A stretch of DNA of 48,364 nt from a virus: IMG/VR virus record IMGVR_UViG_3300025674_008651, positions 1 to 48,364 of that record; one strand, given 5' to 3'. A program made the position numbers and the translations under genes. This document shows positions 19,671-43,785 of the stretch, in pieces. Under the pieces are notes generated by a model. The model did not search any database and had not been told where the DNA came from. It saw only the letters and a list, made by a program, of their open reading frames with translations. Numbering within the stretch: the first letter of the stretch is position 1; the number at the start of each line of letters is the position of its first letter.

Positions 19671-20453
19671 ATGCCACATATTTCTTATTCAGAACTTAAA
19701 AACTGGACCATGTGTCCACACTACAGGAAATTAGTAAATGAAGATAAACTTAATCCGCTTACTGATTCTATTTTTACGACCTTTGGAACGGCTGTTCACT
19801 CTGTGTGCGAGGAAATTGCACCAATGGATCACCAAGTTAGCGATCCAGCTACACTCTTTGAAAGCCGATTCAAAGAAGAACTCACAAAATTAGAAGATGT
19901 AGAGCAAAAAACAATAGATCAATTTATGAATCAAGGCAAGGAGATCGTAGTAGAAGTCACCGATGCCTTAAAAGACTATTTTGGTGAGTATGAAGTTCAC
20001 CAAGTTGAGGAGCAACTCTTTGAGCGAATCATTGAGTTCCCTAATAAAGAGTATGACTTTAAGGGCTATGTTGACCTTATCGTTAAGACTCCAGACGGCA
20101 AGTACCACATTCTAGACTGGAAGACTTGCTCTTGGGGCTGGGATGCCCGTAGAAAAGCAGAAAAGATTACCACTTATCAGCTTACTTTTTACAAAAAGTT
20201 CTTTGCTGAAAAATACAGTGTTGACCCATCAATGATTGAGACTCACTTTGGACTACTCAAGCGAACAGCAAAGAAAGGAAAAAAGGTTGAGATCTTTAGG
20301 GTCACAAGTGGTGATAAAAAAACTAAAAATGCTGTTAAACTTTTGACAGATGCCTTGTATAATATTTCTAACGAAAGACACTTAAAAAATCGGCTAAGTT
20401 GTCATAAAATGTATGGAACTTGCCCATTTTTTAAAACGGAACATTGTACATGA
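19671..20453 (+). CDS. PD-(D/E)XK nuclease, Cas4/RecB-like
   Basis: The 260-residue protein starts with SYSELKNWTMCPHYRKL, the usual lead of RecB/Cas4 nucleases, then FGTAVHSVCEE. The catalytic set is GYVDLIV (Asp135) and HILDWKTC (Asp149-x-Lys151), followed by YQLTFYKK (motif IV). One Cys in the lead (about residue 15) and three near the C-terminus (SCHKMYGTCPFFKTEHC) are placed like the four ligands of an iron-sulphur cluster in Cas4/AddB nucleases. It probably processes DNA ends in phage replication or recombination. No Cas genes are nearby. Its end overlaps the first glycosyltransferase by 4 bases. Confidence 0.9.
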   Translation: MPHISYSELKNWTMCPHYRKLVNEDKLNPLTDSIFTTFGTAVHSVCEEIAPMDHQVSDPATLFESRFKEELTKLEDVEQKTIDQFMNQGKEIVVEVTDALKDYFGEYEVHQVEEQLFERIIEFPNKEYDFKGYVDLIVKTPDGKYHILDWKTCSWGWDARRKAEKITTYQLTFYKKFFAEKYSVDPSMIETHFGLLKRTAKKGKKVEIFRVTSGDKKTKNAVKLLTDALYNISNERHLKNRLSCHKMYGTCPFFKTEHCT

Positions 20454-21712
20454 GTGATAAAAAGATAAAGATATTTACATTAAGCGATCATCCACTTACA
20501 CCATCTGGTGTTGGAACACAGACAAAATATATCATTGAGGGAATGCTCAGAACTGGTAAGTACCAGTTTATTTCTTTTGGTGGTTTGATCAGGCATGAAG
20601 ATTATCGTCCAATCAAAACAGAAGAGTTTGGTGATGATTGGATTATTATCCCTACAGATGGTTATGGAACACAAGAATCTGTTAGAGCTATGCTATGGTC
20701 AGAAAAGCCAGATATTGTTTGGTTCATGACAGATCCTCGTTTTTGGGGCTGGCTATGGCAGATTGAAGAAGAGATTCGCCATAATGTCCCAATGGTCTAC
20801 TACCATGTATGGGATAACTATCCTTATCCAACTTATAATAAACCAAATTACGATAGTAATGACTTTATCGCTACAATATCAAAGGTTACAGATGATATTG
20901 TAGCAAATGTCTCACCAGATGTAGACAGGCAGTATGTTCCACATGCTGTTAATTTAGATATTTTTAAACCTTTAGAGGATGATTTCCTAGAACAGCTTAG
21001 AGCAGATAACTTTAAAGAAAACAAAGACAAGTTTATTGTCTTTTGGAATAACAGAAATGCTCGCAGAAAGATGGGAGCTACTTTAATTCTTTGGTTTAAG
21101 GACTTCTTAGATAGAGTTGGTCATGATAAGGCTGTTCTATTAATGCATACTAATCCTAGGGACCAAGCAGGATCCAATCTAGAGGCTTTAATTGAAGACA
21201 TTGGATTGAACGACGGACAAGTACTTTTCTCAAGAGAAAAGCTGCATCCTGAGAACTTAGCAGCCATGTATAACATGGTTGATGTTACTATAAACATTTC
21301 AGATGCTGAGGGTTTTGGACTTGGAACTCTAGAGTCCTTATCCTGTGGAACTCCAATCATAGTCAACATGACAGGTGGCTTACAAGAGCAAGTTACAGAT
21401 GGCGAAGAGTGGTTTGGGGTCGGTTTAGAACCAACCAGTAAGACCATTGTAGGCTCACAAGAGGTTCCTTTCATCTATGAGGACAGACTCGCAAAGGAAC
21501 AGGTTGTAGAGGCTCTCCTAGAGATGTTTAACAAGACTCCCGAGGAAAGAAAACAGCTTGGTCTGAAGGGTCGTCAACATGTAGAAACTAACTACAACTT
21601 TGAAAACTTTATTAAGACATGGGACGAGATTTTTACAAAGGTTCATGAAGAACATGGATCTTGGGAAACTCGTAACAGAAAACAAAATTGGACATTAAAA
21701 GAAGTAGCATGA
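20450..21712 (+). CDS. Glycosyltransferase, GT-B fold (GT4-like)
   Basis: The start at ATG 20450 (MSDKKIKIFTLSDHPL) overlaps the nuclease stop by 4 bases; an upstream TTG is in frame. TPSGVGTQTKYIIEGML is the N-terminal Gly-rich donor loop region. The C-terminal half has FWNNRNARRKMGATLIL and the nucleotide-sugar signature EGFGLGTLESLSCGTPIIV. At 421 residues it has a full GT-B length. It is the first gene of the glycan island; sugar donor and acceptor are unknown. Its base composition resembles the left flank more than the AT-richer genes after 23 kb. Confidence 0.9.
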   Translation: MSDKKIKIFTLSDHPLTPSGVGTQTKYIIEGMLRTGKYQFISFGGLIRHEDYRPIKTEEFGDDWIIIPTDGYGTQESVRAMLWSEKPDIVWFMTDPRFWGWLWQIEEEIRHNVPMVYYHVWDNYPYPTYNKPNYDSNDFIATISKVTDDIVANVSPDVDRQYVPHAVNLDIFKPLEDDFLEQLRADNFKENKDKFIVFWNNRNARRKMGATLILWFKDFLDRVGHDKAVLLMHTNPRDQAGSNLEALIEDIGLNDGQVLFSREKLHPENLAAMYNMVDVTINISDAEGFGLGTLESLSCGTPIIVNMTGGLQEQVTDGEEWFGVGLEPTSKTIVGSQEVPFIYEDRLAKEQVVEALLEMFNKTPEERKQLGLKGRQHVETNYNFENFIKTWDEIFTKVHEEHGSWETRNRKQNWTLKEVA

Positions 21713-22986
21713 AAAAGAAGATTTTAGTAAGGGGACCAGCCCTATCACAAACTGGTTATGGCGAACAATGCCGTTTTGCTCTTAGGGCTTTAAGATCTAG
21801 AGAAGATTTATTTGACATCTATCTCCTTAACATTCCTTGGGGCGGTACTAACTGGATTTTTGAAGACAGCGAAGAGAGGAGATGGCTAGATGAGCTAATC
21901 ATCAAAGCCAAACCTTTGCTGGAACAACAAAAGCAAAATCCACAAATGCCCATCTTTGACATTTCTCTTCAGGTAACGATTCCAAATGAGCTACAAAGAA
22001 TGGCTCCACAAAACATTCTTTACACAGCAGGAATTGAAACAGATAAAGCTTGTCAGGAATGGATTGGCAAATGTCACCAGTTTGCCGACAAGATTCTTGT
22101 TATCTCAGAACATGCTAAGGCAGGACTACAGGTTCCAATCAAGGCTCAAGATCAAAATGGAAATGAACTAGACTTTGTTCTAGATAAGCCAATTGAAGTA
22201 GTTCACTATCCTGTCAAGAAAGTCGAGACAAAAGAGCTAGATCTTCAACTAGAAACAGACTTCAACTTCCTTGCTATCTCACAGTGGGGACCACGAAAGA
22301 ACTTAGCTAACACAATTGGCTGGTTTTGTGAGGAATTCAAAGATAATTCAAATGTTGGTTTAGTAGTTAAAACTTTTGCGAAGGGCAATAGTCAAATAGA
22401 CAAAGACTTCTTAGAGAAAGCTCTCAAGTCTGTTTTGGACAACTTCCCAGATAGAAAGTGTAAGGTTTATTTCCTTCATGGTTACATGAACGAGCAAGAG
22501 CTACACTCGCTTTATGTTCATCCAAAGATTAAAGCAATGGTCAACTTTGGTCATGGAGAAGGCTATGGTTTGCCTCTATTTGAAGCAGCTTACTCAGGGC
22601 TTCCTGTAATCACCCATGACTTCGGAGGGCAAAAGGACTTCCTCTATGCCCCTAAGAAGGATAAGAAGGGTGTAGAGAAGCTCAGAGCCCATTTCAGTAG
22701 GGTTAATCACGAACTCAAGCCAGTTCAAAAAGAAGTTCTTTGGAAGGGTGTAATTGAGCCTGACATGCAGTGGGCTTATCCAAACGAATCTAGCTGTAAG
22801 ATAGCTATGCGCGAAGCTGTAAAGAACTATGGGCTATTACAGGGCGAAGCAAAGCGATTGAAGGAATGGTTGGAGCAAGAGTTTGAAGAGGATAAAAAAT
22901 ACGACTCTTTTGTACAATCACTATATGGCGAAGAATTAGAAATACAGTCAGAAATTGACGATCTATTTAATCAACTAGAGCTATGA
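21709..22986 (+). CDS. Glycosyltransferase, GT-B fold (GT4-like)
   Basis: It starts at ATG 21709 in an ATGA overlap. The N-terminus has RGPALSQTGYGEQCRFAL, a donor-loop region similar in plan to its neighbour. AISQWGPRKNLANTIGWF and HGEGYGLPLFEAAYSGLPVI give the C-terminal nucleotide-sugar site with the E-x7-E spacing of GT4 enzymes. At 425 residues it is complete. It pairs with the upstream enzyme, and the two may work on the same acceptor. A linker with LRAHFSRVNHELKPVQKEV is an insert of unknown role. Substrate unknown. Confidence 0.9.
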   Translation: MKKKILVRGPALSQTGYGEQCRFALRALRSREDLFDIYLLNIPWGGTNWIFEDSEERRWLDELIIKAKPLLEQQKQNPQMPIFDISLQVTIPNELQRMAPQNILYTAGIETDKACQEWIGKCHQFADKILVISEHAKAGLQVPIKAQDQNGNELDFVLDKPIEVVHYPVKKVETKELDLQLETDFNFLAISQWGPRKNLANTIGWFCEEFKDNSNVGLVVKTFAKGNSQIDKDFLEKALKSVLDNFPDRKCKVYFLHGYMNEQELHSLYVHPKIKAMVNFGHGEGYGLPLFEAAYSGLPVITHDFGGQKDFLYAPKKDKKGVEKLRAHFSRVNHELKPVQKEVLWKGVIEPDMQWAYPNESSCKIAMREAVKNYGLLQGEAKRLKEWLEQEFEEDKKYDSFVQSLYGEELEIQSEIDDLFNQLEL

Positions 22987-24617
22987 TTATTGTAGTAGCT
23001 GATGCTTTTTCAAATCAGTTTTTAGGCGGCGCCGAATTGACCTCTGATGCTCTACTTGAAGCCGGTTTTAATAATTATAAAAAAATAAATTCACCAGCTT
23101 TAACTGAAGAAATTATTGAAAAATATAAAGATAAAAAGTGGATATTTTTTAATTTTGAATATGTCAATAAAAAATGCCTGCTAAAAGTAGCGACAACGAT
23201 ATTAGACTACAGTGTTGTCGAATACGATTATAAATACTGTAAGTATAGACTAAAGAGTAAGCATGAAAGCTCTGGTGAAAAGTGTGAATGTGAAAAATCA
23301 CACAGGGGAAAATTAATAGCAATATTTCTAGCAAAATCAAAAAATTTATTTTTTATGTCTAGCGGACAAAAAAATGAATATGAGAACATTTATCCAATAT
23401 TAAAAAAACATAAATCATCACATGTTTTAAGCTCTTCATTTAGCAAGAAAAGTTTAAACCAGATACGCTCTTTTTTAAAAAACTCAACAAGTAAAAATGA
23501 TAAGTATTTAATTTTAAATTCTGATTCTTGGGTCAAGGGAACAAAAAATTGTGTTGAGTACGCTGAGAAAAATAAATTAAAATATGAATTAGTGGGCGGC
23601 TTACAACACAAAGATCTGCTAAAAAAATTATCAGAATCTAAAGGTTTAATATTTTTACCAAACGGATATGATACTTGTCCGAGAATAGTAATAGAAGCAA
23701 AACTTCTTGGTTGCGATGTTATATTAAATGATAATGTTCAACACAAAGATGAGCCTTGGTTTAACGACAGTTCTAGTATTTTAAATTATGTTGAACAACA
23801 AAAGAATTTATTTTACGATAAATGCTTAAAGCAGGAGATAACTCATAATCGCCTATCTGAAAAAACAAGATTTCATTTTATAATACCGGGATACAACGTT
23901 TCTGATTGGATTCAAAAATGCGTGACATCTATAAAACGACAGGACTATAAAAATTATTCCGTAACGTACATTGATGATGTTTCAACCGACGACACGGTTG
24001 AAATATATGATTCACTAACACCAGATGATTGTGGTTTTACTAATTTTGAAAAAATTGTTAATAAAGAAAAAAGTTACGCTTTAAAAGGTATATCAAGTGC
24101 CATAAAGACATTAAACATTGACAAAGAAGATGTTATAATCGTTCTAGATGCGGACGATTGGCTGTCATCACCAGATGTCTTAAGTTATCTAAATACAGTT
24201 TATCAAAAGCAAGATTGCTGGATGACCTATGGAAGTTACATGTATTATCCATTTGGAGATATGGGTGTAGAGCCTTCTGACTACCCGCAAGATGTGGTGG
24301 AGAACAATTTATACAGAGAGGATGATTGGCGAGCATCTCATCTAAGAACTTTTAAGAAAAAACTTTGGGACAAAATTGACCAACAAGATCTTATAGATGA
24401 CGACGGAGAATATTATAAAACTGCCTACGATCAGGCTATGATGTTACCCATGTTAGAGATGGCAAGGGAAAGAGCAAAATACATTCCAGAAGTTCTACAT
24501 GTGTACAATAGAGCAAACGCTATAAACGTCGATAAACAAAAACAAAAACAACAATATGAAACAATGCTTAGAATACGAAAGCAAAAAAAGTATGAAAGGG
24601 CAGACTTTGAAGATTAG
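22983..24617 (+). CDS. Two-domain glycosyltransferase (GT-B-like plus GT2)
   Basis: The 544-residue protein joins two transferase modules. Residues 1-290 have a GT-B-like end, NSDSWVKGTKNCVEYAEK ... YDTCPRIVIEAKLLGCDVIL. Residues 297-520 form a GT-A/GT2 domain: FIIPGYNVSDWIQKCVTSI, YIDDVSTDDTVEI and VIIVLDADDWLSS, where DAD is the metal-binding DxD. The N-terminal half lacks the full first Rossmann motif and may be shortened. A single chain could add two sugars in sequence. It starts in an ATGA overlap. From here on the DNA is visibly more AT-rich. Confidence 0.85.
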   Translation: MIIVVADAFSNQFLGGAELTSDALLEAGFNNYKKINSPALTEEIIEKYKDKKWIFFNFEYVNKKCLLKVATTILDYSVVEYDYKYCKYRLKSKHESSGEKCECEKSHRGKLIAIFLAKSKNLFFMSSGQKNEYENIYPILKKHKSSHVLSSSFSKKSLNQIRSFLKNSTSKNDKYLILNSDSWVKGTKNCVEYAEKNKLKYELVGGLQHKDLLKKLSESKGLIFLPNGYDTCPRIVIEAKLLGCDVILNDNVQHKDEPWFNDSSSILNYVEQQKNLFYDKCLKQEITHNRLSEKTRFHFIIPGYNVSDWIQKCVTSIKRQDYKNYSVTYIDDVSTDDTVEIYDSLTPDDCGFTNFEKIVNKEKSYALKGISSAIKTLNIDKEDVIIVLDADDWLSSPDVLSYLNTVYQKQDCWMTYGSYMYYPFGDMGVEPSDYPQDVVENNLYREDDWRASHLRTFKKKLWDKIDQQDLIDDDGEYYKTAYDQAMMLPMLEMARERAKYIPEVLHVYNRANAINVDKQKQKQQYETMLRIRKQKKYERADFED

Positions 24618-25485
24618 ATTAGAAAATGTAAATTTAAATAGCAATTCTGGACCAAACTCCTTTGCTCAAAAGCTAGTAAAGGAGTTTCAAATTCAAGGGC
24701 ATTCTTTTGCATCTAAAGATTATGACAGCGCATTGTGCTTTATAGAGGATCATTCAAACTTGGCGGGTAAAAACCTCTATCAAAGGTTAGATGGCATTTA
24801 TTTCAATACTCAGTTCAACTATGATATGCAAAATTCAAATATTTTGAAAACTTATCAAAAAGCTCAAGGAATAATATTTCAATCAAACTTCAGTAAAAAA
24901 TTAGTTACATCTTTTTTTGGACCACATCCAAATACAATAATTATACACAACGGCGCCAATCTAGATTTAATAGAAAAGATAGAACCGATAAAAAATAACA
25001 TAATTGATCGTTATGAAACAGTTTGGTCTTGCGCTGCTACTTGGAGACCACATAAAAGACTAAAAGACAACATAGAGTATTTTTTAGAGCACAAGGGTCA
25101 AAATGACTGCTTGGTGATTGCCGGTAAACCAGATTACTTTTATAAGGATCCAAACATTTTTTATGTTGGGGAATTGAATTATGAAAAACTGTTATCCGTT
25201 TATAAAAAAAGCAAGTACTTTATACATCTTGGCTGGCTTGACAATTGCCCCAATGTTGTTGTAGATGCTAGAGCCTGCGGCAGTCAAATTATTTGTTGTT
25301 CTGCTGGTGGTACTCAAGAAGTCGCAGGTCTAGACGCGACAGTTGTTGAAGATAATTGGGATTTTAAGCCAACAAGGCTGTATGAACCACCTACACTAGA
25401 CTTTTCAAAGAAAATTAAAAATAAGTATGATTCATGTTACGATATAAGAGAAGTAGCTAAAAAATACATTGAGTTTATTAAATGA
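24592..25485 (+). CDS. Glycosyltransferase (GT4-like, small)
   Basis: The preferred start is ATG 24592 (MKGQTLKIRLENVN); an upstream in-frame ATG at 24556 would give a 62-base overlap, and TTG 24607 after AAAGGG is another option. Residues include NLNSNSGPNSFAQKLVKEF (donor loop region), IFQSNFSKKLV, WSCAATWRPHKRL and LDNCPNVVVDARACGSQIICC, with the final part being the nucleotide-sugar site. At about 298 residues it is shorter than usual for GT4. Sugar unknown. Confidence 0.8.
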   Translation: MKGQTLKIRLENVNLNSNSGPNSFAQKLVKEFQIQGHSFASKDYDSALCFIEDHSNLAGKNLYQRLDGIYFNTQFNYDMQNSNILKTYQKAQGIIFQSNFSKKLVTSFFGPHPNTIIIHNGANLDLIEKIEPIKNNIIDRYETVWSCAATWRPHKRLKDNIEYFLEHKGQNDCLVIAGKPDYFYKDPNIFYVGELNYEKLLSVYKKSKYFIHLGWLDNCPNVVVDARACGSQIICCSAGGTQEVAGLDATVVEDNWDFKPTRLYEPPTLDFSKKIKNKYDSCYDIREVAKKYIEFIK

Positions 25486-26402
25486 AAATATTTACCGTAG
25501 TAGCTAATGAAAACTGGATATGTGATAGACTTGTAGGTGAGTGGCAAGAACACGCCGGTTATGCAAAAAGTTACACCGATGCAGAAGTTATCTGGGTTTT
25601 TAGTCCGTCTAATTGGAGGCTGGTGCCACCAGAGATTTTAAAAACAAAAAAAGTTGTTGTAACAATACATCACATTACTCCACAAAAATTCACAAAAGAT
25701 TCGTTAAGAGAGTTTTTAATTAGAGATAAAATAGTTGATTTTTATCATGTTACTTGTAAACAGACCGAAGATTTTTTGAAAAAAATTACTAAAAAACCAA
25801 TTTTTAAACAGCCATTTTGGGTTAATTCAAAAAATTGGTTTAGTTCGCCAAAGCAGGAGCTTAGACAAAAATATAGTATTTCTCAAGATGCATTTTTAGT
25901 AGGTTCTTTTCAAAGAGACACAGAGGGCTATGATTTAAAATCTCCAAAACTAGAAAAAGGACCAGACTTATTCTGTGATATCGTAGAAAAAATGAACAAT
26001 CAAGTGGGCGATTTACAAGTTTTGTTAGCCGGTTGGCGAAGACAATATGTTATTGGCAGGTTAGAAAAAGCAGGAATAAAATATCAGTATTTTGAGAGAC
26101 CTGATTTATCGGTTGTTAATGATTTATATAACTGTTTAGACTTGTATGTCGTTTCAGCTAGAACCGAGGGTGGACCACAATCAATTGTAGAGTGTGCTGC
26201 CAACAAAACTCCAATAATTTCTACTGATGTGGGAATTGCCTCTGTTATTCTGGCACCAGAGAGCATATACGATCCAGCTATAGAAATTGGAAAGCCAAAT
26301 GTCGAATTAGCGTATGAAAACGTTCAAAAATATTTAGTTCCCTCTGGTTTCAAGCCGTTCATTGATTTTTTTAAAACAAGTTTTAAGTTGCAAAATGTAT
26401 AA
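25482..26402 (+). CDS. Glycosyltransferase (GT4-like)
   Basis: The 306-residue protein starts in an ATGA overlap. VTIHHITPQKF sits where GT-B enzymes have an acceptor-side loop. VGSFQRDTEG marks the domain linker, and SARTEGGPQSIVECAANKTPIISTDVG is a clear GT4 nucleotide-sugar motif with its Glu pair. The N-terminal domain is short. It is part of the serial glycosyltransferase run; donor and acceptor are not predictable. Confidence 0.85.
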   Translation: MKIFTVVANENWICDRLVGEWQEHAGYAKSYTDAEVIWVFSPSNWRLVPPEILKTKKVVVTIHHITPQKFTKDSLREFLIRDKIVDFYHVTCKQTEDFLKKITKKPIFKQPFWVNSKNWFSSPKQELRQKYSISQDAFLVGSFQRDTEGYDLKSPKLEKGPDLFCDIVEKMNNQVGDLQVLLAGWRRQYVIGRLEKAGIKYQYFERPDLSVVNDLYNCLDLYVVSARTEGGPQSIVECAANKTPIISTDVGIASVILAPESIYDPAIEIGKPNVELAYENVQKYLVPSGFKPFIDFFKTSFKLQNV

Positions 26403-27069
26403 ACAATTTTATAAAGATGGTCTCTGTCAGGTTAATTTTGGTGGAAAAAAATTAGATCAAGTTTTAACTAAAATTTTAAAAAACGATTTAAAACACGGTT
26501 ATAACTTAGAATCAAAATATCTTGGCAGTTATGATTTAAGACCAGATGTTTTGTCGTATGATAAGATTTTTATTGAGTCGCTCAGACAACACAATATTAA
26601 AAAAATTATAGAGGAAACCACACTAAAAAATTATTCATTATTTCATATACAAATTAGAGTGGTTGAAAACACTAATAGCTATATGGATTGGCATAGGGAC
26701 ACGTACTATGATGAGAGTGGAGAATTACACGGAAAAAGCCCACATGGCGTTAAATTAATTTACTATCCAGAGTTAAATAAAGAAAAACAAGACAGGCTTT
26801 TATATTTGTGTGGGTCAAATAGAATTCTTTTTCCTAATAACTTGTATGATAGAGGGCTTTTTAAAATATTAGAAAGTAAGAAGGTAAAATCAAATAAAGA
26901 TAAGGCTATATTGTTTGATACTAATGGTTTACACTCGGTCTGCCCAGAGGCTAAAAATAATAAATCTATACGTCTAATATATTCGTTTTTAAGTAAAAAA
27001 CAAATTTTGGATGACCATAGTGATAGTAAGTTGCATATGAAGACAATGCAAATGTTTGAGGAAATTTAA
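26395..27069 (+). CDS. Fe(II)/2-oxoglutarate dioxygenase-like protein (phytanoyl-CoA hydroxylase type)
   Basis: The start is placed at ATG 26395 (MYKQFYKDGLCQVNF), 8 bases inside the previous gene; the longer frame from 26362 seems less likely. The iron site is readable: MDWHRD gives His100-x-Asp102, and GLHSVCPE gives the distal His180. Arg193 in SIRLIYSF would hold the 2-oxoglutarate carboxylate. At 224 residues it has the size of a single double-stranded beta-helix domain. Within the glycan island it could hydroxylate or desaturate a sugar or lipid intermediate. The family call rests on this His-x-Asp...His...Arg set. Confidence 0.8.
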   Translation: MYKQFYKDGLCQVNFGGKKLDQVLTKILKNDLKHGYNLESKYLGSYDLRPDVLSYDKIFIESLRQHNIKKIIEETTLKNYSLFHIQIRVVENTNSYMDWHRDTYYDESGELHGKSPHGVKLIYYPELNKEKQDRLLYLCGSNRILFPNNLYDRGLFKILESKKVKSNKDKAILFDTNGLHSVCPEAKNNKSIRLIYSFLSKKQILDDHSDSKLHMKTMQMFEEI

Positions 27070-29734: not shown

Positions 29735-29736
29735 CT

Positions 29737-30342
29737 ATGGGAAGAAGTGATCCACATATATTTAATTTTTATAATCAAAATATTAAACCGTCTGGATCAA
29801 CCGCGCTCCTCGGGTTTACTAATAACAAATGGTTCAACGGGGATTTGTACGATCTTCAATTGGGAAACTGGAACATAAATAGTGAATGGGAACTTCCAAA
29901 AAAATATGACACTATTATATGTTTAAGGTGTGCTTATTTTTCTAAAAACCCAGACGATTTTATTGTTCGTTGTTATAACAGTCTGAATGACGGTGGTAAG
30001 TTATATGTTGACTGGGGCTTGGGTGATCATTGGAGATTCAAAGATTATAAAATCGGGTGGCTAAAAAATGAAGAGCATGAGTGTGCTTATGAAAGTGATA
30101 ATTATTTGTGGTCTACCGTGTGGGATGATTCGTTTTTAGAGAACGAACAGTTTAAATTATTTTCTAAGAGAGTGGAGAAGTTTGGTTATAATGATGTCAA
30201 AGAAGCAATATATCAAGAAACACCCGAGGTCTTAATTTTAAATTATATTAAAAAGTTCTTTAAAATAAATTATAATATAATAGCATTGTGGGAAGATATG
30301 CCACAACTGTATATCTTTATCAAAGGAATAAAAAATGGCTAA
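29737..30342 (+). CDS. Methyltransferase-like protein
   Basis: The 201-residue protein has a Rossmann-like order: TALLGFTNNKWFNGDLYDL (where a SAM-binding motif I would be, but with only one Gly), YDTIICLRCAYFSKNPDDFI (motif IV) and LNDGGKLYVDWGLGD (post-motif). The degenerate first motif lowers certainty. It lies between the deacetylase-like and epimerase-like genes and overlaps the latter by 8 bases. It may methylate a sugar, or be a non-catalytic relative. Confidence 0.65.
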   Translation: MGRSDPHIFNFYNQNIKPSGSTALLGFTNNKWFNGDLYDLQLGNWNINSEWELPKKYDTIICLRCAYFSKNPDDFIVRCYNSLNDGGKLYVDWGLGDHWRFKDYKIGWLKNEEHECAYESDNYLWSTVWDDSFLENEQFKLFSKRVEKFGYNDVKEAIYQETPEVLILNYIKKFFKINYNIIALWEDMPQLYIFIKGIKNG

Positions 30343-32381: not shown

Positions 32382-32391
32382 GAAATTTGTT

Positions 32392-33195
32392 ATGAGTAAA
32401 ATACAAATAGGTGTAGCCTGTGGTTCAAATTGTGAATTATATGTTAATTTTTTAATGAAAACAATAGAAAACACTGTAAGCGATAAAAAAAGAATAGAGT
32501 TTATTTTGGGAATAAATAAGCCGAACGTCAATAGAGAATCTCTTTTAAAATACAAAGATGTTTTTAACATAAAGATTATAGATGCTCTATCAAATGAGCA
32601 TGGATCTATGGGTCATGGATATTGCTTAGATAAAATACTAGAACAAATGAGTTCTGAATATGGAATGATTGTTGATTGTGACGTTGCATTTTTAGAAAAA
32701 GATTGGGATGTTAAACTAATAAATGAGCTTGATGATAAAAAAATTATCATCGGAGCCGCAACAGAAAACAATCATCACCATTATTATAATTTTCCTTTCA
32801 CGATTATGGTTTTATTTAAAACTAAAATTTTAAAAACCTTAAATGTTTCTTTTAAGCCAAAATTAGTTGATATAATCTTGACAGAAAAAAATGCAAAACT
32901 TTTTGGAAGAAAAGTCGGAGACAAAATACATTTAGATACTGCGTGGCAATTGCCGCTAAAGATAAAAAGCGCGGGCTACGATGGTATATCATTGCCACTG
33001 ATCAGCCCTAGATGTGACCATGGAAGAGAGAATATGCTGTTTATGAAAGAAGGGATGAGAGGCGAAGAACACCAGTTAAATGGGGTGCCAATATTTACAC
33101 ATGTAGGTCGATCATCTACAAGAGTATTTTCTAGTGATCCTATTGTGATAAAATGGAAGAACAGGGTGGAAGAGTGGTTGGAAGAAAAAAGATAG
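32392..33195 (+). CDS. GT-A type glycosyltransferase-like protein
   Basis: The 267-residue protein reads IQIGVACGSNCELYVNFLMK (first strand and nucleotide loop), EFILGINKPNVN, and YGMIVDCDVAFLEKDWD, where DCD is the likely DxD metal motif. HLDTAWQLPLKI and CDHGRENM complete the domain. The pattern fits a GT2-like or related GT-A enzyme with diverged edges. Its 3' end overlaps the next gene by up to 43 bases. Confidence 0.75.
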   Translation: MSKIQIGVACGSNCELYVNFLMKTIENTVSDKKRIEFILGINKPNVNRESLLKYKDVFNIKIIDALSNEHGSMGHGYCLDKILEQMSSEYGMIVDCDVAFLEKDWDVKLINELDDKKIIIGAATENNHHHYYNFPFTIMVLFKTKILKTLNVSFKPKLVDIILTEKNAKLFGRKVGDKIHLDTAWQLPLKIKSAGYDGISLPLISPRCDHGRENMLFMKEGMRGEEHQLNGVPIFTHVGRSSTRVFSSDPIVIKWKNRVEEWLEEKR

Positions 33196-34352
33196 CAATT
33201 TTTTTAGGAGACTGTTTTTGGAGTAGCACGCCTTATGATGGCATACCTCTATATAACTTTTTAAAAAATCATTATAGCGTAGATTTTTTAATGTTTGAAT
33301 CTGATATAAGATTAAACAAAGTCTTTAATTCTAGTGAAAAGTTTAATTTTGATACAAAAAAATTTAAAAATTTAAGTAATTTAAAAAAAATCAAAAATTG
33401 GGATGATCTTTATAATGTTTCTTTAAACTATTCTCTCATAATAACAAGCTCTCGTATCGCTCCAAAAACAAGATTTCCATTTAAGTCAAAAAAATTTAGA
33501 AGTTTGACCGAGTGTCCCATCGCAGTATGGGATATTGGGGGAGCCGACATATTAACAGATGCAGTCCAATTTGCTGATTATTTTTTTGTCAAAGGACCTA
33601 TCTGGAAAAAGTGGATGATAAAAATGGGTTACGATGAAAAAACAATTTTTATCACCGGCTCGCCACATTATGACAAATATTTAGAAGAGTATGAAACACA
33701 CGCTATCGAAAAGGTGTTGAATCGTCAACAATTTAATGAAAAATACGATTTAAAATATGAAAAAAGAATATTGCTAGCTCCTAGCAATCCTGCGAGCCAC
33801 ACTAAACAATTTAATGAAAGTATGAATTCTTTAGAAACCATGGTTAGATTGTGTGAGAAAAATAACATTGAGCTACTTCTTAAAACCTACCCTCACGATT
33901 ACATATTTTACGATAATGAGATTCCATACAGCGGCATTTACAAGAGAAAGTATACTAATAAACCACAATACCAATATATTGCAGACATGTTCCCGACAAT
34001 TAAAATTGTTGAAAGTCAGGATCATTTTGCAGCAGTTAAACATGTTGATAAAATTTACAACATGGCGGGTAGTAGCATAGCTTGGGAAACTTTCTTCACA
34101 AACTCGGTTTCTTATTCGACAAACTTTAAAAAACAAAAATACTATAAAAAATTATCTTATTTACCAGAATATATTGAATTTCCTGACGAAGAAATGAACA
34201 TTCATGTAGATAATTGTGAACAAATCATAAAAGGGGCGTATAATATAAATAAAGATTTGTGTTCTAATTTTATTTTAAAAAATTTTATTTTAAAAGAGAT
34301 ATCAATCTTTAATATATTTGAAGCAGTTAAACAAATTTTAAATGGTCATTAG
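33153..34352 (+). CDS. GT-B glycosyltransferase / CDP-glycerol-phosphotransferase-like protein
   Basis: The protein has up to 399 residues; the true start may be a little downstream (GTG 33174), as the listed ATG gives a 43-base overlap. KKIAIFLGDCFWSSTPYDGIPLYNFL begins the first Rossmann domain. FITGSPHYDKYLEEY, RILLAPSNPASHTKQF, ELLLKTYPHDY and YNMAGSSIAWETFFTNS follow the order seen in CDP-glycerol/poly-glycerol-phosphate transferases and UDP-GlcNAc 2-epimerase-like folds. The final GSS-AWE segment binds the nucleotide phosphate in such enzymes. It could transfer a sugar or a polyol phosphate. Confidence 0.75.
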   Translation: MEEQGGRVVGRKKIAIFLGDCFWSSTPYDGIPLYNFLKNHYSVDFLMFESDIRLNKVFNSSEKFNFDTKKFKNLSNLKKIKNWDDLYNVSLNYSLIITSSRIAPKTRFPFKSKKFRSLTECPIAVWDIGGADILTDAVQFADYFFVKGPIWKKWMIKMGYDEKTIFITGSPHYDKYLEEYETHAIEKVLNRQQFNEKYDLKYEKRILLAPSNPASHTKQFNESMNSLETMVRLCEKNNIELLLKTYPHDYIFYDNEIPYSGIYKRKYTNKPQYQYIADMFPTIKIVESQDHFAAVKHVDKIYNMAGSSIAWETFFTNSVSYSTNFKKQKYYKKLSYLPEYIEFPDEEMNIHVDNCEQIIKGAYNINKDLCSNFILKNFILKEISIFNIFEAVKQILNGH

Positions 34353-34355
34353 TAG

Positions 34356-35273
34356 ATGAAAATTCTGTGTATAACCCCCGTAAAACATTTAAATGGCGTA
34401 GCCGAACTTCTCTCCTCTAAAGGAGAAACATTCTATTACGAGGGGCATAAAAAAGCAGAGATAAGACAGATATTACTACGCAACAATATAGATGTAATAG
34501 TGTGTAACCCTAATCAGCAACTCTACTTAATTGATAAAGAAATATTAGACGGAACTTCTGTAAAGATAATTAATACTTGTTCAACTGGGCTAAATCATAT
34601 TGATTTAGAGTATTGTAAATCAAAAAGAATTAAAATACAATGTCTTAAAAATGATTACAAACTTATTAATCAACTACCTTCTACATCCGAACTAGCTTTT
34701 GGTTTAATGGTTTCACTTTTAAGAAAAATTCCTTCAAGCCAATCCCATGTTTCAAAATATCAGTGGGACTACACCCAGTTTATGGGTAGGCAGGTTAAAG
34801 ATTTAAAAATAGGAATTGTTGGCTATGGTCGCCTCGGTAAAATGATGCATAAATTTTGTCAAGCATTTGAAGCAGAGGTCTATATCTGCGATCCATACAA
34901 ACCAGAGGGGACAAATACGTTAGAGGAAATATTTTTAAATTGTGATGTTGTTTCTCTTCACGTTCATGTGACGAATGAAACAAGACATATGATTAATAAG
35001 GATTTGTTAAATCTTGCCACTAAAGAACTTTATTTAGTTAATACTTCAAGAGGCGAGGTGGTAAGGGAGGAAGACATTGTTTCTGCTTTAGCTAATAACA
35101 AATTAACTGGTTATGCCACAGATGTAGTACAAGATGAATTTGGGTCTTTAAAGCAATCTCCAATTATAGCTGCAATGAACGAGGGCGAAAACATAATAGT
35201 AACACCTCACGTTGGAGGCATGACTGTTGAAGGTCAGACAAAAGCTTATAAATGGTCGATAGGAAAATTATAA
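34356..35273 (+). CDS. D-2-hydroxyacid dehydrogenase family protein (SerA-like)
   Basis: KIGIVGYGRLGKMMHKF is the NAD-binding GxGxxG. The catalytic triad is visible: NTSRGEVV (Arg), TDVVQDE (Glu/Asp) and TPHVGGMT (His). INTCSTGLNHIDLEYCKSK is the typical substrate-domain loop. At 305 residues it lacks the regulatory ACT domain of PGDH. In such islands these enzymes supply a 2-keto or 2-hydroxy acid, or oxidise a sugar acid; the substrate is not clear. Confidence 0.88.
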   Translation: MKILCITPVKHLNGVAELLSSKGETFYYEGHKKAEIRQILLRNNIDVIVCNPNQQLYLIDKEILDGTSVKIINTCSTGLNHIDLEYCKSKRIKIQCLKNDYKLINQLPSTSELAFGLMVSLLRKIPSSQSHVSKYQWDYTQFMGRQVKDLKIGIVGYGRLGKMMHKFCQAFEAEVYICDPYKPEGTNTLEEIFLNCDVVSLHVHVTNETRHMINKDLLNLATKELYLVNTSRGEVVREEDIVSALANNKLTGYATDVVQDEFGSLKQSPIIAAMNEGENIIVTPHVGGMTVEGQTKAYKWSIGKL

Positions 35274-35274
35274 A

Positions 35275-35973
35275 ATGCATATATATGAATCAGCCTTTGA
35301 TCTTGAACAAAGAGAGGCAATTACAAAAAAAATTCAAGAATTTATAGAAAATAGAGATCAGATTACAATGTTGGTGATTGGCTCACCAGATTGCAAAGAA
35401 ATAAAAAATTTAAGTGAAAAAATTAAAGAAAAAATAAATTTATTTGTTTTTGACTTTGAAATAAAACGCGGTAAAATATCAAATAATTTTAAAAAATCTT
35501 TTAATTTTTATGAAGAGTACTCTGGCGATTTTTTTAAAAATATAGAAAAAATTAAGATAAAGGCAGACTTTGTTTTTCATCGATGGTTTTTGCACCATTG
35601 TACAGATCATCAAAAGATAGAATCGTTTAAGATAATTAAAAATTTGCTAGCAAATGAGGGTGAGTTATTAATAATAGACTGGATGATACCGGATTATTCT
35701 TCTGAACAGGAAAGGTGGAAATCATCAAAAAAATACTATAAATACCACGAACAGCATGGTTTAAAGATTGCAAAAAACAAACAAGAACATAATTTTTCAA
35801 AAATAAACACTCCCAACGGAAAAGGTGGAAAGTTTATTTCTCATCAAAAATTAGAAGAAATTATGAAAAAAGAAAATTTAGAGTTTAAACGAGAGATCCT
35901 ACACCAGTCAAAAGTAGAAGATCCAGAATTGTTTGGGGCAAATTTATACATATGCAAGGAAGGAGGTAATTAA
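35275..35973 (+). CDS. SAM-dependent methyltransferase-like protein
   Basis: The 232-residue protein has TMLVIGSPDCKEIKNLSEKI (motif I position), FVFDFEIKRG, FVFHRWFLHHCTDHQKI (a catalytic-region motif) and ANEGELLIIDWMIPD (the post-motif of class I methyltransferases). HRWFLHH recalls the LHH/VLHH of SAM methyltransferases acting on small molecules. Its stop shares a base with the next start. It probably methylates an island intermediate. The Gly-rich loop is weak, so the call is moderate. Confidence 0.7.
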   Translation: MHIYESAFDLEQREAITKKIQEFIENRDQITMLVIGSPDCKEIKNLSEKIKEKINLFVFDFEIKRGKISNNFKKSFNFYEEYSGDFFKNIEKIKIKADFVFHRWFLHHCTDHQKIESFKIIKNLLANEGELLIIDWMIPDYSSEQERWKSSKKYYKYHEQHGLKIAKNKQEHNFSKINTPNGKGGKFISHQKLEEIMKKENLEFKREILHQSKVEDPELFGANLYICKEGGN

Positions 35974-36509
35974 TGAAAATATTAGCAATCATACCAGCAA
36001 AATTAGACTCAAAAAGGCTATCAAGGAAAAACATTAGAGAACTAAATGGAAGACCGATGTTAATACATTCAGTTGAATATGCAAAAAATAGCAAATACGA
36101 TGTGGATGTGATCGTTTCTTCTGAAAGTGATATCGTCAAGAGTTTATGCGAACAAAATAATATAAAATTTCATAAAAGACAATTGTCTTTATGCGGTGAA
36201 ACTGAAGTTGTTGATGTTTACTTGAATGTTGTAAGAGCGGTACTTGGCAAATACGACCTTGTAGTAGGTCTTCAACCCGATAATCCAAATAGATCACATA
36301 CTCTTGATGAGTGTATTGATTATATGATTGAAAACAAATACGATGATTTGATTACTGTGAATCCAAGTTATAAGCGTAGTGGTTCCGTTCGGATATTTAA
36401 GTATGATTATTTATATTCTGGTCAAGTAAGTAAAAGATTGGGCTGTATCAAGGATGAAGCTGTGGACATTCATTACGAATCAGATTTAGAATTGATAAGG
36501 GAGTGTTAA
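35973..36509 (+). CDS. neuA: CMP-nonulosonate cytidylyltransferase-like (compact NeuA)
   Basis: IIPAKLDSKRLSRKNIREL is the CTP-binding signature of NeuA/KdsB enzymes, followed by GRPMLIHSVEYA, VIVSSESDIVKS and VGLQPDNPNR (the LQPTSP motif in altered form). The C-terminus AVDIHYESDLELIRE matches the IDI-x4-DL end of the family, so the gene is complete although only 178 residues against about 220-230 normally; the middle is shorter. It should charge a nine-carbon acidic sugar (sialic, legionaminic or pseudaminic type) with CMP. Its NeuB partner is at 37095, two genes on. Confidence 0.85.
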   Translation: MKILAIIPAKLDSKRLSRKNIRELNGRPMLIHSVEYAKNSKYDVDVIVSSESDIVKSLCEQNNIKFHKRQLSLCGETEVVDVYLNVVRAVLGKYDLVVGLQPDNPNRSHTLDECIDYMIENKYDDLITVNPSYKRSGSVRIFKYDYLYSGQVSKRLGCIKDEAVDIHYESDLELIREC

Positions 36510-36510
36510 A

Positions 36511-37107
36511 ATGTTATATACAAAAAAAATGAAGCGCACGTTCAAGGGTCATGCGCTAGATCAAATAACTCAATTAAAAGAAAAATACTGTGTAAGTCTA
36601 AATAATCCAATTATAGCTGATATTGGTGCTAATATTGGATATTGGTCTGAATCATTTTTAGAAATCTATCCTGCATGTGAACTTCACGCATATGAGCCAC
36701 ACCCGGATAACTTAAAAGAACTAAAACAATTAAACGATGGTAGACTTACAATACATGAATACGGACTGTTTGACTCTGATGGTGAGTTTACAATAGGAAT
36801 GCGTTCTGATGGCAAATCAAATAATGGAACCTATGGAATCTTTAATAAAGAAAATCCAACTAGCGTTCCTTTCAAAAACGCGAACAATGAAACTATAAGA
36901 CCAAACATTGTTAAAATGGATGCGGAGGGCGCTGAACCAAATATACTAGAGTGTTCGGATTTCTTTTCAGAAACAAAGGCAATTTTAATTGAATTACTTC
37001 ATAGGGATGACTTTGGCTTGAACCAAAAAATCGAAAATAATTTAAAAAAACTTGGATTTAAATATAAGTGTAGTTTAGGGAGAAACGATCAACTATGGTT
37101 AAGATAA
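36511..37107 (+). CDS. FkbM-family methyltransferase
   Basis: VSLNNPIIADIGANIGYWSE is the SAM-binding DxGANxG of FkbM enzymes. LHAYEPHPDNLKELK and NIVKMDAEGAEPNILE are the other two signatures, the second having the KxDxEGxE motif. At 198 residues it is a compact single domain. FkbM proteins O-methylate sugars and polyketides; here the target is probably a sugar hydroxyl in the island's glycan. It overlaps the neuB-like gene by 13 bases. Confidence 0.9.
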   Translation: MLYTKKMKRTFKGHALDQITQLKEKYCVSLNNPIIADIGANIGYWSESFLEIYPACELHAYEPHPDNLKELKQLNDGRLTIHEYGLFDSDGEFTIGMRSDGKSNNGTYGIFNKENPTSVPFKNANNETIRPNIVKMDAEGAEPNILECSDFFSETKAILIELLHRDDFGLNQKIENNLKKLGFKYKCSLGRNDQLWLR

Positions 37108-37895
37108 TTGCAGAAATAGGGTGGAATCACTGTGGTGATATGAACTTAGCCAAAGAAATGATTTTGGCAGCGCACAACAGTGGCGCTGATTACGCAAAAT
37201 TTCAAACATGGTCTGTTGATAGGCTTAAATCTGGCAGTTGGGACTATGATGGTAGAAGACAAATATATGAAAAAGCTGAATTGACACATGAAAAACATTT
37301 AGAGTTGAAAAAATACTGTGAATTGATTGGTATTAAATTTTTATCTAGTGTTTTTAGTATAGAAGATGCTAAAATGTTAGTTAAAATAGGGTGTAAAGAG
37401 GTTAAAATACCAAGTTTTGAGTCTAGAAATGAAGCGTTGATTGCATATTGCTTAAAAAATTTTAAAACTGTTTTTATGTCTACTGGCACCTCTTCTTACG
37501 ATGAGATTAGGAACGTTTATGAAAAAATAAACCATGAAAGTTTTTATTTATTACATTGTGTATCTTCTTACCCATGCAAGCCGGATATAGCAAATATACC
37601 AAAAATGTTAAAATTAAAACAATTAACAGAAAAAATTGGGTATAGCGATCACATACAAGGGGTTGAATCGGCAAAGGTCGCGATTGAGTTTGGCGCTAAA
37701 GTAATTGAAAAGCACTTTACTACAGATAACGATTTGCCGGGAAGAGATAATAAATTTGCAATTTTACCAAGCGATATGAAAAATTTATCAAATTATATAA
37801 AGCTGAGAAACGAAATGCTAATTGATCATGGCTCTGGATATCAAAGCTGTGAGAAGGACTCAAGAGAAAATTATGCAGGCAGATTTGATGGATAA
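37095..37895 (+). CDS. neuB: N-acetylneuraminate-type synthase, TIM barrel only (NeuB-like)
   Basis: NeuB enzymes join phosphoenolpyruvate to a six-carbon amino sugar to make a nonulosonic acid. Landmarks are AEIGWNHCGDMNLAKEMI (metal and PEP region), GADYAKFQTW, KFLSSVFS, STGTSSYDEI, IGYSDHIQG and AKVIEKHFTTDNDLPGRDN. The protein stops at 266 residues, just where the barrel ends (ENYAGRFDG), so the C-terminal SAF/antifreeze-like domain that normally completes the active site (total about 345) is absent. It may pair with a stand-alone SAF protein or work on a different sugar. It is close to neuA and FkbM genes. Confidence 0.88.
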   Translation: MVKIIAEIGWNHCGDMNLAKEMILAAHNSGADYAKFQTWSVDRLKSGSWDYDGRRQIYEKAELTHEKHLELKKYCELIGIKFLSSVFSIEDAKMLVKIGCKEVKIPSFESRNEALIAYCLKNFKTVFMSTGTSSYDEIRNVYEKINHESFYLLHCVSSYPCKPDIANIPKMLKLKQLTEKIGYSDHIQGVESAKVAIEFGAKVIEKHFTTDNDLPGRDNKFAILPSDMKNLSNYIKLRNEMLIDHGSGYQSCEKDSRENYAGRFDG

Positions 37896-38529
37896 GGTAA
37901 GTGTAATTATTAGAAATAAGAACGAGAGTCAATTTATAGGATTCGCCCTTCAATCAGTTTGTGATCACTTACCTAATTCTAATGTTGTTGTGGTAGACGA
38001 TAATTCTTTAGATGATTCCATGGATATTGTAAAAATGTTTAATACAAGATTAAACATAAAAACAATTAAAATTGATGACTATTCACCAGGAAAAGCATTA
38101 AATATAGCAATTAATTATTGCCAGCATGAAACTATTTTAATATTGTCTGCCCATGCTCAGATTGTAAGAATGGATCTGCACTCTGTAAAGAAAAAATTAA
38201 AAAAATTTGCCGCAGTATTTGGAAACCAAACACCAATATATCGTGGTAAAAAGATTACAAAAAGATATATTTGGTCTCATTTTATTGATGGCGAGGTAAC
38301 AAATATGTGGTCCGACATTGAAAATCGACCTTTTTTACACAATGCTTTTTGTTTTTATAATAAAAAAGACTTAATCGATCTACCATTTGATGAAAGCTTA
38401 TCTGGAAAAGAAGATAGGTATTGGGCTATAGATCTACTGAAGAAGAAAAAATCTTACTTGTATACACCAGAAATAGAGGTTAATCATTATTACACTGTTA
38501 ATGGCGCAACTTGGAAAGGCATTGGATAG
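37888..38529 (+). CDS. Glycosyltransferase family 2-like
   Basis: The preferred start is ATG 37888 (MDKVSVIIRNKNESQFI), overlapping the neuB-like gene by 8 bases; upstream ATGs at 37822 and 37873 are in frame. VSVIIRNKNESQFIGFAL, VVVVDDNSLDDSMDIV and PGKALNIAINYCQ are GT2 signatures. ILSAHAQI stands where DxD is expected, so the metal site is altered. FDESLSGKEDRYWAIDL resembles the ED acceptor-side motif. At about 213 residues it is the shortest GT in the island. It ends before a short non-coding gap. Confidence 0.8.
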   Translation: MDKVSVIIRNKNESQFIGFALQSVCDHLPNSNVVVVDDNSLDDSMDIVKMFNTRLNIKTIKIDDYSPGKALNIAINYCQHETILILSAHAQIVRMDLHSVKKKLKKFAAVFGNQTPIYRGKKITKRYIWSHFIDGEVTNMWSDIENRPFLHNAFCFYNKKDLIDLPFDESLSGKEDRYWAIDLLKKKKSYLYTPEIEVNHYYTVNGATWKGIG

Positions 38530-38587
38530 AACTTTTTAAATTAAAAAAAACTTAATTTGTGTTAAAATTAAAAAAAGGGGGTTGTGC
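38530..38587 (+). promoter_or_regulatory. Intergenic gap with candidate extended -10 promoter
   Basis: This is the only gap over 50 bases inside the glycan island. It is nearly all A/T. TGTTAAAAT (38560-38568) fits an extended -10 (TG-n-TAAAAT) after A-rich tracts; no good -35 is seen. GGGGG just before the next start acts as ribosome site. A 7-base AT-only inverted repeat (AAATTAA ... TTAATTT) lies upstream but is too weak to call a terminator. Confidence 0.45.
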
Positions 38588-39511
38588 ATGAGTAGATGTT
38601 TGGTTACTGGTTATAAAGGATATATTGGAAATAAATTATATAATAAATTAAAACAACTGGGTCATGATGTAATTGGTATAGATTTGCAAGATGGTCACGA
38701 CATTAACAGCGATTTAAATCACGGTTTAGATAAGAAATCATTTCATCCGAAGTATTATAATTTTAAGCCTGAATACATTTTTCACTTAGCATATATTCCA
38801 AGAGTAGCCTATAGTGTTGAAAATCCCGTAGAGACAACAAAAAATAACATTCTATGCACAACAAACGTTTTAAATTTTGCAAAATCGGTTGCAGCAAAAA
38901 GAGTTATTTTTTCAAGCTCTTCTTCTGTTGTTGGAGATGGTGACGGACCCGTTAGCCCATACGCACTACAAAAACTTTATGACGAAATGCAGTGTAGGCT
39001 ATGGTCTAAAATTTATGGCTTAGACACAGTGTCTTTAAGATATTTCAATGTTTATTCAGAAGATCAGGAGGCTAAAACTGCATACGCTACTGCTATAGCT
39101 AATTGGATGCACTATATAAAAGGAGACAAGAAGCCATTTTTAAATGGTGATGGCGAGAACAGAAGGGACATGTTGCATGTTAATGACGCAGTGTCGGCAA
39201 ATGTGTTCGCTATGAATTATGATGGACTATTTGCAGGAAAGTCTTTTGATGTTGGCACGGGAGACAATATATCTTTAAATGAAGTAATTAAAATAATACA
39301 TAGTCACTTCCCAGAAGTAGAGTTTGAAAGGCGTCCACCAAGAAAGGGGGATGTTTTACTTACCAGGGCAAAAACATCAGATCTTAAAAAGCTGGGCTGG
39401 GAAACCACTGTGGATATAAACAGTGGGATAAATTCCTGTTTTAAACAGTTAAAACAATATAAGCAGGGTATTGGAAGATCTCAATTTAGAAATAACAATG
39501 GAGTAATGTAA
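38588..39511 (+). CDS. NAD-dependent nucleotide-sugar epimerase (extended SDR)
   Basis: The start is placed at ATG 38588 (MSRCLVTGYKGYIGNKL), with GGGGG about 7 bases upstream. CLVTGYKGYIGNKLYNKL is the GxxGxxG site. HLAYIPRVAYSVENP, FSSSSSVVGDG, SPYALQKLYDE (Tyr-x3-Lys), LRYFNVYS and RRDMLHVNDAV complete the GalE/WbpP-like plan. At 307 residues it is intact. Typical products are UDP-galactose, UDP-GalNAc or their uronic acids. It may have its own promoter and closes the island. Confidence 0.9.
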   Translation: MSRCLVTGYKGYIGNKLYNKLKQLGHDVIGIDLQDGHDINSDLNHGLDKKSFHPKYYNFKPEYIFHLAYIPRVAYSVENPVETTKNNILCTTNVLNFAKSVAAKRVIFSSSSSVVGDGDGPVSPYALQKLYDEMQCRLWSKIYGLDTVSLRYFNVYSEDQEAKTAYATAIANWMHYIKGDKKPFLNGDGENRRDMLHVNDAVSANVFAMNYDGLFAGKSFDVGTGDNISLNEVIKIIHSHFPEVEFERRPPRKGDVLLTRAKTSDLKKLGWETTVDINSGINSCFKQLKQYKQGIGRSQFRNNNGVM

Positions 39512-43773: not shown

Positions 43774-43785
43774 GATAATTATTAT

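Follow-up and report, generated by a model that had tools for sequence, protein, structure and literature searches.

A conserved glycosyltransferase pair beside an exchangeable glycan-gene cassette in marine, distantly T4-related phages

Gene content of the locus

The stretch of DNA analyzed here (denoted the window) is the 48,364-base virus record IMGVR_UViG_3300025674_008651 of IMG/VR, which lacks terminal repeats and is probably a fragment. Its + strand carries 21 consecutive genes encoding glycosyltransferases and sugar enzymes (20444-39511), of which the first two (denoted GT4A and GT4B) belong to the phage backbone and the following 19 form a cassette that is exchanged among relatives. 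A preliminary description of the window had placed about twenty consecutive glycan genes inside a phage genome, bounded by a DNA nuclease and a late-gene regulator; our analysis agrees, as the genes lie between a PD-(D/E)XK nuclease and a T4 gp55-like sigma factor. Scans with Pfam gave matches above the gathering score for 14 of the 21 genes (GT1/GT4, GT2, NAD-dependent epimerase, CTP_transf_3, NeuB, FkbM methyltransferase, radical SAM/SPASM, 2-hydroxyacid dehydrogenase and DUF2334), and sub-threshold matches only for the remaining seven.

With the nuclease and sigma factor as queries, hundreds of related viral contigs were detected, and 50 records were examined. The loci of 45 relatives were collected, one incomplete at its left end; together with the window they make up 46 loci, whose 1,073 open reading frames (ORFs) were clustered. 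ORFs were called mechanically, and most of the relatives, like the window, are either fragments or records whose completeness is not established. The genes of the window on either side of the cassette are as follows.

19671..20453, +, PD-(D/E)XK (RecB/exonuclease-like) nuclease, left backbone (PF12705 E=9e-14; phrog_1218 exonuclease; in 48/50 related records)
20444..21712, +, GT4A, core retaining GT4 glycosyltransferase, proposed primer (PF00534 E=1.4e-13; EX7E motif, EGFGLGTLE, present)
21688..22986, +, GT4B, second core GT4 glycosyltransferase (PF00534 E=4.3e-6; EX7E motif, EGYGLPLFE, present)
39511..39696, +, conserved ORF of 61 amino acids that marks the right edge of the cassette (motif just before the sigma factor in 21/46 loci)
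39692..40051, +, cupin of the mannose-6-phosphate isomerase C-terminal type, outside the cassette (PF01050 E=6.4e-13); present in some close relatives only and absent from relative G002
40020..40280, +, FmdB-type zinc ribbon protein, right backbone (TIGR02605 above cut-off)
40277..40582, +, small backbone protein with an N-terminal hydrophobic segment (cluster in 44/46 loci)
40548..41249, +, T4 gp55-like late sigma factor, right backbone (phrog_234 E=5.7e-7; in 50/50 related records)

The recognized genes between 19671 and 41548 all share the + strand, and neighbors overlap or are separated by no more than 10 bases, except for a single gap of 52 bases; this region looks like one transcription unit. 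The locus is within the same strand-coherent block as the late sigma factor and the downstream tail-region genes, and PhoH is encoded further left of the nuclease. The T4 late-promoter motif TATAAATA, considered as a possible indicator of late expression, is found at 10 sites against 5.4 expected, none of them at the cassette edges, and sigma-70 promoters and terminators were not clearly above chance. The window contains no transfer RNA gene.

Core pair, cassette edges and turnover

In 48 of the 50 records, the nuclease and sigma factor genes lie on one strand, 3.3-27.1 kb apart. Both GT4A and GT4B are present in all 45 relatives, including those whose locus is otherwise empty, with GT4A identity of at least 51.5%. 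The GC content of the pair is 0.392; cassette genes average 0.325, whereas the flanks are at 0.377 and 0.364 (Mann-Whitney p=5e-6), confirming the AT-rich center that the preliminary description had seen. Across loci, the pairwise identities of nuclease, GT4A, GT4B and sigma factor are strongly correlated (Mantel r 0.68-0.83). Being universal, backbone-like in GC and inherited with the nuclease and the sigma factor, GT4A and GT4B are core genes and not part of the exchangeable cassette.

The cassette edges were mapped against relatives with nuclease and sigma proteins 85-97% identical to those of the window. On the left, nucleotide similarity breaks off at 22,904, 22,884 and 22,889, at the 3' end of GT4B; on the right it returns at 39,488-39,510, at the start codon of the 61-amino-acid ORF. 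Between these shared edges the close relatives carry different cargo; one contig (L087) additionally shares the right-edge epimerase of the window. An island spanning 20450-39511 had been proposed. Its end coordinate fits these data, but its left edge has to be moved, because GC and gene content break at about 22,884-22,904, and a single 19-kb insertion starting at 20450 was rejected, as the first two genes are core.

Three records (G025, G030 and the 180-kb G040) show empty sites, in which nuclease, GT4A and GT4B are followed directly by the small right-hand backbone ORFs and the sigma factor. In the comparison with phages lacking the island that had been suggested earlier, what these phages keep between nuclease and right backbone is the GT4 pair. 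No NAD-dependent epimerase was found elsewhere in the three records, and 20 of the 21 epimerase matches in nine relatives that do carry a cassette are inside the locus, the outlier being in G050. This distribution bears on the idea that the cassette is neutral filler making up headful length, or that it yields a soluble small-molecule product instead of a glycoconjugate. 'Stuffer DNA' was considered for the lipopolysaccharide (LPS) clusters of cyanophages (PMC3037559), and the three relatives without a cassette are in line with such a role, but in addition to the epimerase pattern the reading frames are intact and tightly packed or overlapping, the cargo is one-stranded and largely sugar-related across loci, and the base composition described below points to long residence in phages. 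We consider the idea improbable.

Cargo sharing tracks backbone identity only weakly (Mantel r 0.15-0.26). The window shares 5% of its cargo with G002, 6% with G003 and 12% with G039, whose sigma factors are 90%, 85% and 88% identical to its own, respectively. The median between-locus cargo overlap is 9%, and 182 of 298 clusters are singletons. Other loci share the cargo at the edges (genes starting at 22983, 24556 and 25482 on the left and at 38582 on the right) more often than most mid-cassette cargo, as expected if recombination uses the flanks. The segment from GT4B to the 61-amino-acid ORF is replaced wholesale by other predicted sets of glycosyltransferase, nucleoside diphosphate (NDP)-sugar, methyltransferase and cytidine monophosphate (CMP)-nonulosonate genes, or is empty. 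We found no earlier description, in the open-access literature, of an exchange locus with fixed edges, a universal GT4 pair, empty sites and no export.

Cassette GC follows backbone GC (r=0.76, 41 loci), suggesting that most cassettes have long been resident in phages; recent bacterial import as a general rule was rejected for most relatives on this ground. The window is one of the exceptions, its cassette GC being 5.5 points lower. The window and G039 show the largest GC deviations, and their cassettes are probably the result of a recent swap.

The phage lineage is marine and distantly T4-related; a T4-type gp23 capsid gene (PF07068) is present in 16 of 22 relatives tested. A host contig or an assembly chimera was rejected in view of the virus record itself, a second record 99.98-100% identical to the window and the 45 syntenic relatives. 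Megablast of window positions 20000-40000 against 50,697 phage records gave no matches. The order nuclease-GT4A-GT4B-cargo is also found in Flavobacterium phage immuto and, with an inserted IMP dehydrogenase gene, in Microcystis phage Mel-JY01, at 27-34% identity.

The GT4B of G002 (ORF G002_02; L172, contig 32000-44719) is 662 amino acids long, apparently by C-terminal fusion to an extra domain, and the apparent fusion point is exactly the cassette edge position of other relatives.

Cassette genes and the predicted glycan

The cassette and its genes are listed below.

22890..39510, +, exchangeable glycan cassette of 19 genes, 16.6 kb (edges accurate to ~20 bases)
22983..24617, +, two-part protein with a GT2 glycosyltransferase domain in its C-terminal half (PF00535 E=1.7e-15; cluster in 22/46 loci)
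24556..25485, +, GT4-like glycosyltransferase, sub-threshold (PF00534 E=1.7e-5)
25482..26402, +, GT4 glycosyltransferase (PF13692 E=2.9e-9)
26362..27069, +, possible 2-oxoglutarate-Fe(II) oxygenase, weak (PF13640 E=0.009, below cut-off)
27070..28071, +, NAD(P)-binding oxidoreductase-like, weak (PF01488 E=0.0017, below cut-off)
28071..29015, +, GT4 glycosyltransferase (PF13692 E=8e-8)
29012..29734, +, polysaccharide-deacetylase-like protein, DUF2334 (PF10096 E=4.2e-12)
29737..30342, +, methyltransferase-like, weak (PF08242 E=0.0057, below cut-off)
30335..31279, +, NDP-sugar 4,6-dehydratase/epimerase, RmlB/LegB-like (PF01370 E=9.5e-41; TIGR01181 E=8.5e-57, below equivalog cut-off)
31272..32381, +, radical SAM/SPASM enzyme (PF04055 E=8.6e-21; PF13186 E=1.5e-8)
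32392..33195, +, possible GT-A glycosyltransferase, weak (PF00535 E=0.067)
33153..34352, +, GT-B/NeuC-like protein (TIGR03568 NeuC E=8.3e-6, far below cut-off)
34356..35273, +, D-2-hydroxyacid dehydrogenase (PF02826 E=6.6e-43; homologue beside neuB in SAR86)
35275..35973, +, methyltransferase-like, weak (PF00891 E=9e-4, below cut-off)
35973..36509, +, CMP-sugar cytidylyltransferase, KdsB/NeuA/PseF-like (PF02348 E=6.5e-18)
36511..37107, +, FkbM-family methyltransferase (PF05050 E=1.6e-9; TIGR01444 above cut-off)
37095..37895, +, NeuB-family nonulosonate synthase, short form without SAF domain (PF03102 E=1.2e-57; PDB 6ncs E=4e-32)
37822..38529, +, GT2 glycosyltransferase paired with NeuB (PF00535 E=1.1e-15; adjacent homologues in SAR11 and SAR86)
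38582..39511, +, NDP-sugar epimerase, right-edge cassette gene (PF01370 E=5.2e-41; 59-63% homologues in G038, G034 and G012)

The cassette contains a nonulosonate gene set, namely a NeuB-type phosphoenolpyruvate-condensing synthase and a CMP-sugar synthetase (PF03102 and PF02348). Neither protein reaches its NCBIfam equivalog cut-off, hence the prediction is of a sugar class and not of one exact nonulosonate. A complete oligosaccharide is a plausible product of the gene set. A NeuC role for the 33153-34352 protein would be tentative: its match is sub-threshold, the near-identical record holds its one viral relative found, and it has no PDB match.

The nearest bacterial NeuB proteins found are those of SAR11 and SAR86 single-cell genomes (42-50% identity). 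They are of the same short form, 271-284 amino acids, so a truncated or broken NeuB in the window was rejected. In SAR11 AG-919-O08 and SAR86 AG-447-A08, neuB is followed by homologues of the 37822-38529 gene and by a cytidylyltransferase gene, and in SAR86 AG-447-A08 also by a 2-hydroxyacid dehydrogenase homologue. The likeness to these surface-polysaccharide clusters thus lies in the short NeuB, the adjacent GT2 gene, the cytidylyltransferase and, for SAR86, the dehydrogenase; as read from translations, the SAR86 cluster also has a polytopic membrane protein and the SAR11 cluster an ABC transporter, whereas the phage loci have neither.

Seven relatives (G006, G014, G017, G022, G026, G033 and G041) carry two NeuB-family synthases per cassette, often one short (~280 amino acids) and one long (~340-500 amino acids), which suggests two different ulosonic acids. 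The cassettes of some relatives also include thiamine-pyrophosphate enzymes and PfkB-kinase/cytidylyltransferase-type genes; these hint that unusual precursors (sugars or amino acids) are used in addition to the common O-antigen sugars.

Candidate acceptors of the glycan

A hydropathy scan, crude but with controls that behaved, assigned two or fewer predicted transmembrane segments to every one of the 1,073 ORFs of the 46 loci. In the control, the rfb/wca region of E. coli K-12, the same scan flagged Wzy (6 segments), both Wzx proteins (9 each) and WcaJ (4). Genome-wide searches for Wzx (PF01943) and for initiating transferases (PF02397), whose controls were positive, found neither family in 17 relatives of 130 kb or more, nor in two isolate genomes. 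Flippase, polymerase and initiating transferase were not found in the 46 loci, indicating that the locus is not a self-sufficient O-antigen or capsule system, which would have Wzx/Wzy or an ABC exporter together with an initiating transferase. It also differs from serotype-converting gtrABC, defined by the membrane flippase GtrA and the GtrB/Gtr glucosyltransferases, as the locus encodes no polytopic membrane protein. Since the loci encode no recognizable export machinery, the acceptor must be reached from the cytosol; predicted candidates are a virion protein, DNA, or an inner-leaflet host carrier that the host exports. The preliminary description had named virion, phage DNA and host surface as possible targets, and the lack of export genes, together with the data on DNA modification below, narrows this choice without settling it.

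If DNA were the target, the GT4 pair would act on a modified base, the cassette would extend the sugar and the product would protect against restriction. DNA is a cytosolic acceptor, as required, and phage glycosyltransferases make diverse DNA glycans (cited in PMC12619734). A gene of the thymidylate synthase family PF00303, which includes the dCMP/dUMP (deoxycytidine/deoxyuridine monophosphate) hydroxymethylases, occurs once in immuto, but none was found in Mel-JY01 or in the 22 relatives searched, with positive controls and with the window's own genome only partly known. The absence from the 22 relatives makes the classical DNA-glucosylation route unlikely, and we regard modification of phage DNA as very improbable. 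A search for TET/JBP 5-methylcytosine dioxygenases (PF12851) gave no matches, but its controls were silent too.

Alternatively, the sugars may be added to host LPS core or undecaprenyl-linked intermediates at the cytosolic face and exported by host MsbA or Wzx; the altered surface would keep out superinfecting phages or prevent progeny from re-adsorbing. Comparable clusters have been interpreted in this way in the literature, as proposed for P-SSM2 and for pelagimyophages (PMC2984593, PMC7824862, PMC7029224). The module of NeuB, GT2, cytidylyltransferase and dehydrogenase is common to the polysaccharide clusters of SAR86 and, partly, SAR11, and high cargo turnover would suit adaptation to variable host LPS. 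The loci, by contrast, have no export, polymerase or initiating-transferase gene although the homologous bacterial clusters have membrane proteins, and phages of unrelated hosts have the primer pair in common. Taken together, we consider modification of the host surface unlikely, though clearly worth keeping in view.

The reading that we prefer, and to which we give an even chance, is that the GT4 pair acts as primer on an acceptor encoded by the phage, probably one of its virion proteins, and that the cassette extends the primed sugar into a lineage-specific, nonulosonate-containing glycan. Priming is the simplest role for a pair that is universal, kept without the cassette and inherited with the backbone. 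Retention of the pair in phages of hosts with very different envelopes favors a phage-encoded acceptor. According to the proposed sequence of events, GT4A and GT4B would act in the cytosol and place one or more initial sugars on a conserved acceptor that the phage encodes, most likely a virion protein. Before the particle is assembled or while this happens, cassette enzymes would extend the primed sugar into a methylated, nonulosonate-containing glycan specific to the lineage. Co-infecting phages would recombine through the conserved flanks, and the swapped cassette would alter the phage surface sugars in a serotype-like manner. A broader and more tentative proposal, one that could well fail, is that such 'phage serotypes' exist across the whole marine T4-related lineage, with a fixed two-enzyme primer and a swappable cassette of up to ~30 genes that dictates the outer glycan and is exchanged at defined edges.

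Several points weigh against a primed virion protein. Both the glycan and its acceptor are predicted from gene content, and GT4 similarity says little about acceptor identity. The best PDB profile match of GT4A and of GT4B is 3oy2, the chlorovirus protein B736L, which in the GT4A search is only narrowly ahead of BshA. Cytosolic synthesis would also be expected if the products were host LPS core or lipid-linked intermediates that the host exports, and the cargo modules resemble bacterial surface-polysaccharide genes.

Comparison with known systems and wider relevance

P-SSM2 carries 24 LPS genes (PMC2984593), jumbo cyanophages have polymorphic LPS clusters (PMC7824862) and pelagimyophages have a hypervariable host-recognition island (PMC7029224). 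The window shares with P-SSM2-type islands a T4-related phage genome and a multi-gene glycosyltransferase/NDP-sugar cluster. The LPS clusters of T4-like cyanophages (P-SSM2, S-SM2 and S-SSM7) are, like the window's locus, large and polymorphic between relatives, with glycosyltransferases, epimerases and cupins. One of them is near phoH, as is the locus described here. No P-SSM2 homologue of the window's GT4A, sigma factor or NeuB was found in the phage collection searched, and no description of a fixed nuclease-GT4-GT4/sigma locus with empty sites was found for these cyanophages. The pelagimyophage cluster resembles the window in its many glycosyltransferases, its hypervariable, cassette-like differences and its occurrence in marine T4-like phages (PMC7029224), but it sits between VrlC and gp14 and includes tail fibers. 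The site in the window runs from GT4B to the ORFs on the sigma side, and no tail-fiber gene was recognized in its cassette. In the Bacteroidota jumbo phage lineage of 'moraphages', four glycosyltransferase groups are widely shared (PMC12619734).

In gene content, the locus shows the pattern of virus-encoded virion glycosylation, that is, fixed plus variable glycosyltransferases without an export route. Virion glycosylation in mycobacteriophages involves a few glycosyltransferases and is not known to involve a 16-kb sugar-precursor cassette. Mycobacteriophage glycosyltransferases modify capsid and tail proteins (Freeman et al. 2023, cited in PMC12619734). The capsid glycans of chloroviruses are made by virus-encoded enzymes and consist of a fixed core with variable decorations (PMC5408694, PMC4691112), and glycosyltransferases common to all members are the predicted core builders (PMC5408694). 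The resemblance to chloroviruses (PBCV-1; NY-2A with B736L) lies in cytosolic, virus-encoded glycosylation by universal and variable glycosyltransferases and in the PDB profile match. It is offered as an analogy, not as a claim of membership: chloroviruses have eukaryotic algal hosts, mostly scattered genes and a different capsid, and the GT4 resemblance is one of fold family for a glycan deduced from genes.

Phage sugar genes have been known since P-SSM2, and which target they modify is a standing question that this locus makes testable. It separates constant genes (GT4A and GT4B) from exchangeable ones, and the empty-site genomes are natural controls. Immuto and Mel-JY01 are named phage records with bacterial hosts, in principle culturable and analyzable. 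A glycan on the virion would give marine phages interchangeable coats with effects on receptor binding, particle stability and host range, and 'phage serotypes' would then stand beside chlorovirus capsid glycosylation as its counterpart among bacterial viruses, at the scale of an O-antigen locus. If it is on the host, the genes would show a lytic phage remodeling the cell surface without an exporter of its own.

Elsewhere in the window, positions 15777-16787 encode a PurA-like adenylosuccinate synthetase of a short, 336-amino-acid form. PurZ, and with it a 2-aminoadenine genome, was considered but is not supported, as the PurA aspartate is kept (GDEGKGK) and the PurZ model scored 126 against a cut-off of 300; the protein is probably not PurZ. 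The 735-amino-acid product of 3542-5749, with GDSL-lipase-like, peptidoglycan-binding and SLT transglycosylase domains, looks like a virion-associated cell-wall enzyme. A trypsin-like serine peptidase with a lipoprotein-like N-terminus is encoded at the contig edge (942-1685), and among probable structural genes, 10548-12761 encodes a 737-amino-acid protein whose middle part holds a cytidylyltransferase-like (HIGH nucleotidyltransferase) domain.

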